From Synechococcus sp. CS-1330 (lineage in GTDB: Bacteria; Cyanobacteriota; Cyanobacteriia; PCC-6307; Cyanobiaceae): a stretch of DNA of 64,000 nt. The notes under the pieces were generated by a model. The model did not search any database. It had not been told where the DNA came from and saw nothing but the letters and a program-made list of their open reading frames with translations. Positions 35,535-38,937 of the stretch are shown one piece after another; the first letter of the stretch is position 1, and every line of letters begins with the position of its first letter. The stretch is from contig JAHLYR010000018.1 of the NCBI GenBank assembly GCA_025128025.1, positions 62,001 through 126,000 on the forward strand. The letters run 5' to 3'. The translations under genes were made by a program, and so were the position numbers.

Positions 35535-36245
35535 TCAAATCCAGGGATCTTCCTCTTCAGCAGGAGGACCAGAACGGCGGCGGCGAGGGGGGGCATCGGT
35601 TTCGTAGGGCTGATCTAACTCCTCTGGCTCCTGCCAGGGCGGCTCCTCAAGCCAACCCTCCAGCCTCTCCTCAAATCGGTTGCCCGCCTCCTGCACCTGA
35701 TCGCGCCACCGCCTTGAACGACGCAAAAACTCTTGCCGCACACTTGCCCGGGCTAGGGGCAAGTCGTCGATGCTCTCTAGGGCGGTGAGCACCTGGCCGG
35801 GCTGCTGATCCAGCAGGCGATCCAAGCTCAATCGCCAACGGCTACTGCCCGGCAGGCGTGGATCACTGCGACTCACCAGGTAGTGGCGAATACGGCCGCT
35901 ACGCAACTCGATGGCGGCATCGGCCAAGGTACCGATCGGTTGCTGGCGGCGATCCAGCACAGCCGCATCGATCAAGGTCGGCAGCTTCTCCAACACACCA
36001 AGCTCCGCTTCAGCTGGTTCGCCCTGCACAAGTACTTCCAGCTCGGCAATGCCCCGCAACTGGTTGAGACGCCACACCTCCCGGCGATTGCCAAAAGCTG
36101 ACGGCTTTGAAACCCAACCCAGCACCCGATGAACAGGGGGATGCATCCAAACCTGCATGCCCGCACCGTGATCGAGCCCCTGATCGCAGCGGACATGACG
36201 GCGCAGCAACTCACTCAGCAGCACCTGCTCCGGAAGGGGAGCCAC
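35535..36245 (-). CDS. PRC-barrel domain protein, picocyanobacterial
   Basis: A 236-residue protein. Two PRC-barrel-like segments are seen: residues ~5-85 (LLSELLRRHVRCDQGLDHGA and VHRVLGWVSK) and ~95-175 (DAAVLDRRQQPIGTLADAAI then RHYLVSRSDPRLPGSSRWRL). A coiled, charged C-terminal region (QEFLRRSRRWRDQVQE) and an acidic Pro-rich end follow. The start is GTG 36245, two bases past the dnaN stop. Genes of this type lie between dnaN and purL in other picocyanobacteria, from memory. The role is unknown; position suggests coupling to dnaN expression. Confidence 0.8.
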   Translation of the reverse strand: MAPLPEQVLLSELLRRHVRCDQGLDHGAGMQVWMHPPVHRVLGWVSKPSAFGNRREVWRLNQLRGIAELEVLVQGEPAEAELGVLEKLPTLIDAAVLDRRQQPIGTLADAAIELRSGRIRHYLVSRSDPRLPGSSRWRLSLDRLLDQQPGQVLTALESIDDLPLARASVRQEFLRRSRRWRDQVQEAGNRFEERLEGWLEEPPWQEPEELDQPYETDAPPRRRRSGPPAEEEDPWI

Positions 36246-36247
36246 CG

Positions 36248-37393
36248 TCAGCTGCGGATCTGAACGGGCATCACCAGGTAGGTGAATTGATCCCCTTCCG
36301 CAGGAGTCAAAATCGCCGGCGTGGTGGGGGCGTTGCACTGCAGCAGCACCCGATCACAGGCCATGGCCTTGAGGCCATCGAGCAGGTAACGCACGTTGAA
36401 GGCAATCTGAATCGCTTCACCCTCGATTGTGGCTGCGAGTCCTTCAGAACCACTGCCCACGTCCTGGGCATCGGCCTGAATCAATATTTGACCGGTGGCA
36501 GGCTCGGCGCTGAGCTTGACGACATTGTTGTGCTGATCAGCAAGCACCGCTACCCGCTCAAGAGCTGAAACCAAAGCTCGGCGCTCGAGGTTGATCGTGC
36601 GAGTGAAGCTCTCTGGAATCAGCTGGCGGTAGTTTGGGTAGGTGCCATCCAGGCTGCGGCTGGTGAGCACCTGGTCGGCCCACAGGAAGACCACCTGGCC
36701 GCGATCGCAAAACAGGCTCAAGGGCTCTTCAGATTGACGTCCTGAGAGCAGACGCTCCAGCTCCCGCAAGGAGCGAGCTGGCACGGTGACGGCAAAAGGT
36801 TCCTCAGCTTCGTTTTGGCCAGAGGCTGTTGCATGGGCTAGCCGGAGCACGGCCAGGCGATGGCCATCGGTTGCCGCACATTCCAGTCCGGCCGGATCAA
36901 GGCCCAGGTGCACACCAGTGAGCAGTTGCTTGGCTTCGTCGCCACTGCTGGCAAAAAGGGTGGCGCGCAAACCCTTAACAAGGGCTTCCGCTTCCAAACG
37001 GATCGGCGTACCGCTCTGCACTAGGGGCAGATCGGGAAAATCATCGGCAGGCATACCCCGCATCTGGTAGCTGCCCGAAAGGCTGGTGAGCTCCACCTGC
37101 TCGGAACCCTCAGTGCAATTGAGTGTGATCGGGCTATCACTCGAGAGGCGCGAAACAATTTCACCAAACAACCGGGCTGGCAGGGTGATGGCGCCGCTGG
37201 TCTCAACGCTGGCGCTGATGCTGGTCTGAATGCCCAGGCTGAGGTCAAAACCGGTGAGGCTGAGTCGACCCGTGCCCGCATCAGCGGTGAGCAACACGTT
37301 GGCCAGCACCGGATGGGTGGGGCGACTGGCCACGGCCCGGCTCACCAGCTGCAGGCTGGAGCTGAGTTCAGACTGGGAGCAGACCAGCTTCAT
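36248..37393 (-). CDS. dnaN: DNA polymerase III beta sliding clamp
   Basis: A 381-residue sliding clamp of three similar domains. Seen: MKLVCSQSELSSSLQLVSRA at the N-terminus, the central EALVKGLRATLFASSGDEAK region, and the C-terminal VRYLLDGLKAM with VMPVQI ending in RS, a typical clamp C-terminus. It threads DNA and holds the replicative polymerase and repair enzymes. Cyanobacterial origins are usually next to dnaN rather than dnaA, and no dnaA is in this window. It is transcribed away from the adjacent 425-base gene-free region. Confidence 0.97.
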   Translation of the reverse strand: MKLVCSQSELSSSLQLVSRAVASRPTHPVLANVLLTADAGTGRLSLTGFDLSLGIQTSISASVETSGAITLPARLFGEIVSRLSSDSPITLNCTEGSEQVELTSLSGSYQMRGMPADDFPDLPLVQSGTPIRLEAEALVKGLRATLFASSGDEAKQLLTGVHLGLDPAGLECAATDGHRLAVLRLAHATASGQNEAEEPFAVTVPARSLRELERLLSGRQSEEPLSLFCDRGQVVFLWADQVLTSRSLDGTYPNYRQLIPESFTRTINLERRALVSALERVAVLADQHNNVVKLSAEPATGQILIQADAQDVGSGSEGLAATIEGEAIQIAFNVRYLLDGLKAMACDRVLLQCNAPTTPAILTPAEGDQFTYLVMPVQIRS

Positions 37394-37818
37394 GGCGTTT
37401 GTGCTGGGGAGCCTGACGGCTTGATCAAGGGCGACCCCACGCTTCCACAGGGCGGCTGATTCCGCAACGCCGGTGATCCGTCTTGCGGCGCTCTTCTAAA
37501 GGTTTGATTGATCAAGTTCAAGAAAGAAATTAAAACCGTTGTAGTAGGGGGTGAGGAAACCGGGGAAAACCGAAAACCTCTTTGCTGCATCTGGGTTTGA
37601 TCTGGATCAGGGCTGGGGTTTGGCCTGGGACATCTGGGGTAAAAATCAGCTTTTCCGCCGTTTCCAGTGGCTGGGGAAAACTTTGAAGCCGAGGAGCTTG
37701 GCTAAGGCGAGAGCTTCTCCGCGATTTTTATCCCCTTTTCCCCAGCTGTTCAGCAGACGCTTTGCTGATTGGTTGAAGCTTTTGGCTATGCCCGGGCTTG
37801 GGCTAAGCCTGGGCTTGT
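37394..37818. other. Putative chromosomal replication origin (oriC) beside dnaN
   Basis: This is the only stretch over 300 bases without a supported gene. It holds several sites one or two mismatches from the cyanobacterial DnaA box TTTTCCACA: TTTTCCCCA at 37736-37744 (+), TGGGGAAAA at 37672-37680 (the minus-strand form), CGGGGAAAA at 37561-37569 (minus), TTTTCCGCC at 37651-37659 and GCTTCCACA at 37441-37449. An AT-rich part lies near 37495-37545. Strand G/C bias appears to switch here: sampled lines to the left are C-rich on the top strand and those to the right G-rich. The dnaN promoter must also be here. Origin status is inferred. Confidence 0.7.
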
Positions 37819-38937
37819 TTAAAAACCCATCACTTCGGCCACCTTGGCGGTGTCCGCCTCCAGTCCGGTATAGAAGCGGGCGTCATTGTTTTCGATGGCG
37901 GTGGTTGGATCTTTGAGGCCATTGCCGGTGAGCACACAAACCACCGTGGCTCCCTGGGGCACCTCTTGGTGGTGCTTGAGCAGGCCTGCAACCGAGGCAG
38001 CACTAGCTGGCTCGCAGAACACGCCCTCGCCGCTGCCCAGCAGCTTGTAGGCGTCGATGATTTCAGCGTCGGTGACGGCCATGAAGCTGCCTCCGCTTTC
38101 GCTGCGCACGTTCAGGGCCTTTTCGCGATTCACCGGGTTGCCGATACGGATCGCCGTGGCGATGGTGTCTGGCTGCTCAACCGTGTGGCCCAGCACCAAA
38201 GGAGCAGAACCAGCAGCTTGAAAGCCCATCATTCGGGGCAGCTTGCGGCAATGGCCCTCTTTTAAGTACTCGTTGAATCCCATCCAGTAGGCGCTGATGT
38301 TGCCGGCGTTGCCAACTGGGATGCATAGCCAGTCCGGCGCTTCACCAAGGGAATCCACCACCTCGAAGGCGGCGGTTTTTTGCCCCTGCAATCGGTAGGG
38401 GTTCACCGAATTCACCAGGGTGACCGGATATTTGTTGGCAACTTCCTGCACTATCGCTAGGGCCCGGTCGAAGTTGCCCTGGATGGCGATTACCTCGGCG
38501 CCGTAGAGCAGGGCTTGGGCCAGTTTCCCCTGGGCTACATAGCCATCTGGGATCAGTACAAAGGCCCGCATGCCGCCGCGGCGGGCGTAGGCGGCCGCAG
38601 CAGCAGAGGTGTTGCCGGTGCTGGCGCAGATCACTGCTTCAGAACCGGCTTCCTTGGCTTTGGAAATCGCCATGGTCATGCCCCGGTCTTTAAAGGATCC
38701 GGTGGGGTTGAGGCCGTCGTATTTCAGGTAGACCTTGACGCCGCGGCCGATCCTCTCGGCAATCACCGGGGCTGGGATCAGGGGTGTGGAACCCTCCCGC
38801 AGGGTGATTACGGGTGTGCGCTCTGAAACAGGCAGCCAGCGCCGATAGGCCTCGATCAGCCCAGGCCAGTCCTGCATGGTGGGACGGGCAGCAAATGGGC
38901 CCTTGCTCAAACGCTGCAGAGAACGGAGCAAGGACAC
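37819..38937 (-). CDS. thrC: Threonine synthase
   Basis: A 372-residue PLP enzyme converting O-phosphohomoserine to threonine. The PLP lysine lies in GLNPTGSFKDRGMT (Lys83), and the phosphate-binding loop is PVGNAGNISAY. Also seen: VICASTGNTSAAAAAYA and VFCEPASAASVAGL. The length and the short N-terminus place it in the class 2-like bacterial group. It is transcribed toward the putative origin; a 25-base gap separates it from the DUF1400-like gene upstream. Confidence 0.96.
   Translation of the reverse strand: MSLLRSLQRLSKGPFAARPTMQDWPGLIEAYRRWLPVSERTPVITLREGSTPLIPAPVIAERIGRGVKVYLKYDGLNPTGSFKDRGMTMAISKAKEAGSEAVICASTGNTSAAAAAYARRGGMRAFVLIPDGYVAQGKLAQALLYGAEVIAIQGNFDRALAIVQEVANKYPVTLVNSVNPYRLQGQKTAAFEVVDSLGEAPDWLCIPVGNAGNISAYWMGFNEYLKEGHCRKLPRMMGFQAAGSAPLVLGHTVEQPDTIATAIRIGNPVNREKALNVRSESGGSFMAVTDAEIIDAYKLLGSGEGVFCEPASAASVAGLLKHHQEVPQGATVVCVLTGNGLKDPTTAIENNDARFYTGLEADTAKVAEVMGF

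Follow-up and report, generated by a model that had tools for sequence, protein, structure and literature searches.

The thrC-dnaN spacer as the very probable chromosomal replication origin of a Cyanobium-like picocyanobacterium, and DnaA-type box arrays upstream of cyanobacterial DUF2811 genes

The locus raises the question of whether the intergenic spacer ahead of dnaN, put forward as a candidate replication origin in the initial annotation, is the chromosomal oriC of this picocyanobacterium, and by which elements DnaA would act there. The window, i.e. the whole 64-kb stretch of DNA that was analysed, corresponds to G000:C35:62001-126000 of a 2.5-Mb genome present in 72 contigs; the interval under study coincides exactly with the 425-bp spacer that separates dnaN from a thrC-like gene; the two genes are encoded on the minus strand (positions refer to the window):

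36248-37393, minus strand: dnaN, DNA polymerase III beta clamp (Pfam PF00712, PF02767, PF02768)
37394-37818, strand not applicable: oriC candidate, thrC-dnaN spacer (three of the four TTWTCCMCR sites of the window, skew switch, 76 spacers compared)
37819-38937, minus strand: thrC-like gene, PLP-dependent, threonine-synthase-like (Pfam PF00291)

Cyanobium usitatum str. Tous has a dnaN product 99% identical to the one encoded here. Eighty relatives were retrieved via dnaN, resulting in 81 upstream stretches including that of the window; the thrC-like neighbour was located upstream of dnaN in 76 of these (the window counted), some of the remaining stretches being short contig ends. The dnaN/thrC neighbourhood is conserved. 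Several complete public chromosomes start approximately 170 bp ahead of dnaN. The dnaA gene is sited elsewhere in the genome (contig C1) and encodes a DnaA protein with domains III and IV and an intact recognition helix. A box cluster at dnaN, a skew switch and a distant dnaA gene are likewise found in Synechococcus elongatus PCC 7942 and in other cyanobacteria with an oriC next to dnaN (PMC7198777, PMC4674748), whereas the predominance of TTTTCCCCA/G over TTTTCCACA among the boxes and a partly eroded trio run distinguish the window from them. The spacer is an expected place for an origin; the shift in the box letter and the erosion of the trios are its two informative departures.

The cumulative GC skew, calculated for one 140-kb contig and not for the chromosome (the 72 contigs are unordered), reached its minimum at window position 36231, about 1.2 kb from the spacer. 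To the left of the region 22 of 24 windows of 4 kb were negative (mean −0.050), to the right all nine were positive (mean +0.043). The skew was positive also across the minus-strand genes on the right side; in consequence, gene strand alone does not account for the switch, and the earlier claim of a bias change despite differing gene strands holds at this larger scale (the four hand counts of G and C on which it was based were letter-exact; 60-base lines prove little). In 51 of 57 relatives, the GC skew was likewise greater on the side of thrC than on that of dnaN. The skew also bears on the possibility that the spacer is a former origin, whose signature persists in a species that now initiates replication without DnaA: Some cyanobacteria, e.g. 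Synechocystis PCC 6803, do replicate independently of DnaA, but such species show an irregular skew (PMC7198777), in contrast to the clean skew of the contig examined here, and the boxes and the trio-like core described below are conserved across the group. A former origin is accordingly regarded as highly improbable.

The potential DnaA-binding sites of the spacer are as follows:

37736-37744, plus strand: DnaA box TTTTCCCCA, aligned with boxes of close relatives
37672-37680, minus strand: DnaA box TTTTCCCCA, aligned in close relatives
37651-37665, plus strand: weak tandem box pair TTTTCCGCC-GTTTCC (block GGAAAN GGYGGAAAA of the other strand conserved in close relatives)
37552-37569, minus strand: tandem boxes TTTTCCCCG (37561) and GTTTCCTCA (37552), adjoining the trio run; layout shared by relatives
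37435-37449, minus strand: conserved TGTGGAAGCGTGGGG, including the weak box GCTTCCACA (plus strand, 37441-37449)

A motif scan of the 64-kb window revealed four TTWTCCMCR sites, three of them inside the 425-bp spacer (shuffle mean 0.066; none of 5000 shuffles reached three). The two sites reported previously at 37736 (plus) and 37672 (minus) are present and both read TTTTCCCCA; TTTTCCCCG at 37561 (minus) was found in addition. The box had, however, been given as TTTTCCACA, the published cyanobacterial DnaA box (PMC4674748), and this has to be corrected to TTTTCCCCA/G: Exact TTTTCCACA, a feature common but not universal in cyanobacteria, has no copy in the window, and its one-mismatch matches across the whole 64 kb (10 observed versus 7.7 expected) do not exceed chance, so that the motif fails the excess test proposed for it, while the local excess of TTWTCCMCR in the spacer stands. 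The relatives provide the same picture: The 76 spacers contained 110 TTWTCCMCR boxes versus no reversed-motif control, compared with 118 boxes in the whole loci (approximately 954 kb); the strict box was absent from 20 of the spacers, and GCTTCCACA was present in 46. As 90 of the 110 boxes carry C at position 7, the origin box of the group is TTTTCCCCA/G, and the spacer of the window mostly uses this box as well.

In 31 Cyanobium-type genomes (L002, L089-L118) the recognition helix of DnaA has the sequence GGKDHSTV, which coincides with a more frequent C at position 7 of the box; 12 genomes from other cyanobacterial families (L350-L361) have GGKDHTTV. The change from DHTTV to DHSTV may have caused the A-to-C change of the box; GC drift explains it equally well. 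Seven other exact TTTTCCACA sites exist in the genome, six within long open frames and one intergenic (L363:1658-1666, i.e. G000:C22:13157-13165), about 650 bp ahead of a response-regulator gene. Beside the weak box near dnaN, a conserved block consisting of a CGTTGCGC-type element and TGTGGAAGCGTGG (37435-37471 in the window) is found in many relatives.

The AT-rich part mentioned in the initial annotation was recovered (about 70% A+T around 37494-37540); the probable unwinding core at 37501-37569 had not been singled out there. Besides the boxes, this core comprises:

37536-37551, minus strand: GC spacer and degenerate DnaA-trio run CCCCCTACTACAACGG, with CTACTAC at 37541-37547
37501-37537, minus strand: AT-rich, probable unwinding stretch (70-73% A+T in 30-bp windows, the maximum of the spacer; assigned by composition only)

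On the minus strand, the segment contains TTTTCCCCG-GTTTCCTCA-CCCC-CTACTAC-AACGG-TTTTAATTTCTTTCTTG, i.e. tandem boxes, a GC spacer and a CTACTAC trio run leading toward the AT-rich stretch, in the same order (box, box, GC spacer, CTA repeats, AT-rich DNA) as in the basal unwinding system of Bacillus subtilis and others (PMC6669920, PMC8287927). A pattern describing this layout matched 111-200 bp ahead of the dnaN start in 63 of 76 relatives, and likewise in 25 of 30 further genomes (28 genera); all these matches fell on the sense strand and none, in either set, on the antisense strand. As the pattern was composed after the sequences had been seen, these counts are descriptive only. The AT-rich relative G031 possesses perfect trios (ATTTCCACA-ATTTCCACA-GTAA-CTACTACTACTA), whereas in many GC-rich Cyanobium genomes (CTACGACTACGG) alternate trios are devoid of the middle adenine of the 3'-GAT-5' strand, a trio type already suspected in PMC8287927. 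AT-rich relatives have perfect trios, and more of them than the orthologous run of the window, and the run is eroded in GC-rich Cyanobium. Unlike the B. subtilis system, the window contains two strict trios, and its GC-rich relatives alternate strict with middle-adenine-less ones; since the published search rule assumes at least three trios with the middle adenine, strict membership in the basal unwinding system is not claimed for the window. The origin element of picocyanobacteria is hereby mapped finely with respect to the box-letter shift and the trio run eroding in GC-rich genomes, and the natural variants of the latter allow testing of DnaA-trio tolerance.

The features established computationally, namely a box cluster above chance in the window and its conservation in 76 relatives, an AT-rich stretch flanking the boxes, a switch in strand composition (on one 140-kb contig), dnaN/thrC synteny with the spacer adjoining dnaN, a trio-like core and an encoded DnaA with domains III and IV, all indicate an oriC. 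The spacer is thus with high confidence the chromosomal oriC of this Cyanobium-like picocyanobacterium, used via the DnaA-oriC route, in support of the original proposal. By analogy with known origins, DnaA would bind to the TTTTCCCCA/G boxes, and a DnaA filament would grow from the tandem pair (37552-37569) across the GC spacer onto the degenerate trio run (37536-37551) and open the adjacent AT-rich stretch (37501-37537); the helicase would be loaded at the opened stretch and two forks would depart.

A scan of the 2.5-Mb genome identified 52 TTTTCCMCR sites; clusters of three occur at just two places, in the origin and in an array at C24:55695-55803 (L084:2695-2804) upstream of a gene encoding a DUF2811 protein. 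The same motif is hence plainly used off-origin, and the box cluster by itself is no proof of an origin: The spacer boxes might represent a mere operator, by which DnaA or a protein of the same motif regulates dnaN transcription while replication starts elsewhere. This reading is nevertheless very unlikely given that the skew switches at the dnaN spacer and not at the C24 array, and that the trio-like core and the AT-rich stretch are origin features. The converse assumption, that the C24 array is the true origin, could refer to its TTTTCCMCR boxes being as numerous as those of the dnaN spacer; it was rejected and retains a practically negligible probability, since no skew switch occurs along 120 kb of C24 and a single genome bears such arrays at several distinct DUF2811 loci, which is regulatory behaviour. 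The dnaN spacer remains the preferred origin.

The arrays outside the window constitute the more novel result and the one of larger value. In this genome, each of the four DUF2811 genes (L245-L248) is preceded by boxes, which lie 228-361 bp ahead of the domain, and boxes were found near the best DUF2811 locus in every one of 30 named relatives; conversely, a search among 399 genomes of the order for box pairs with a 22-bp spacing led to a DUF2811 gene at 28 of the 30 loci retrieved. The 600 bp upstream of 101 DUF2811 genes (60 from Cyanobiaceae and 41 from other families) were scanned, and 95 of the genes possess a box within this distance. These upstream zones (60.6 kb) contained 197 boxes versus four reversed-motif matches, the flanks (97 kb) nine. 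The boxes are mostly in forward orientation (174 versus 23 inverse); 51 pairs of adjacent forward boxes show a spacing of 21 or 22 bp, an inverted box follows 44-45 bp further on in 16 cases, and the distance from the last forward box to a TTGAC element amounts to 65-70 bp in most Cyanobiaceae and 172-175 bp in most others. Neighbouring genes were rejected as the cause of the arrays, as the upstream neighbours vary (41 loci fall into 27 neighbour groups). No credible Rfam match to a structured RNA was obtained between the boxes and DUF2811. Neither DUF2811 nor any cyanobacterial DnaA regulon was encountered in the literature searched, which included little subscription material; a phylum-wide set of DnaA-type boxes ahead of DUF2811 genes is apparently unreported.

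Based on the motif, the arrays would be bound by DnaA, and across the cyanobacteria DnaA is considered a likely, conserved regulator of DUF2811 transcription, acting via TTTTCC(A/C)CA arrays at a fixed TTGAC distance. An alternative binder, e.g. DUF2811 itself as an autoregulator sharing the motif, appears rather unlikely: The arrays track the DUF2811 paralogues and not the neighbour genes, and the strand-helix-helix pattern of DUF2811 resembles small DNA-binding proteins (by eye only; searches of Pfam and PDB yielded no remote match indicating function or fold), but the motif is the one published as the DnaA box of cyanobacteria, TTTTCCACA (PMC4674748), and the boxes are lost in the single DnaA-less genome that retains DUF2811. 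Indeed, DnaA domain IV was undetected in three of 232 Cyanobacteriia genomes (G471, G473, G475) and DUF2811 in four (G471, G475, G501, G582; the last two are fragmented drafts), i.e. two of the three genomes without detected DnaA also have no detected DUF2811. The third, G473 (L325), has kept DUF2811 and the TTGACA element at −115; its 600-bp upstream zone contains neither a box nor a one-mismatch box, and its DUF2811 gene is the only boxless one among the 41 from other families. The concurrence of DnaA loss with the loss of DUF2811 or of its boxes is suggestive of DnaA as the binder and no proof, as three DnaA-less genomes reflect few, perhaps non-independent losses.

In cyanobacteria replicating without DnaA, the role of the protein has been called unclear (PMC7198777); the same paper gives dnaA deletions as viable in PCC 6803, PCC 7002 and Nostoc 7120. 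Regulation of DUF2811 may be the function retained by DnaA where replication no longer needs it, and the arrays provide a concrete candidate target for DnaA that is accessible in standard laboratory strains; DUF2811 may in turn couple some process to DnaA activity. With their boxes off oriC, near a promoter and in close pairs, the arrays resemble the DnaA-regulated promoters of Escherichia coli and B. subtilis (PMC8203912, PMC11317965). They differ from these in that no description of DUF2811 as a target of DnaA was found, and in the phasing of the boxes at 21-22 bp and about 68 or 174 bp from TTGAC, which extends over many cyanobacterial families.
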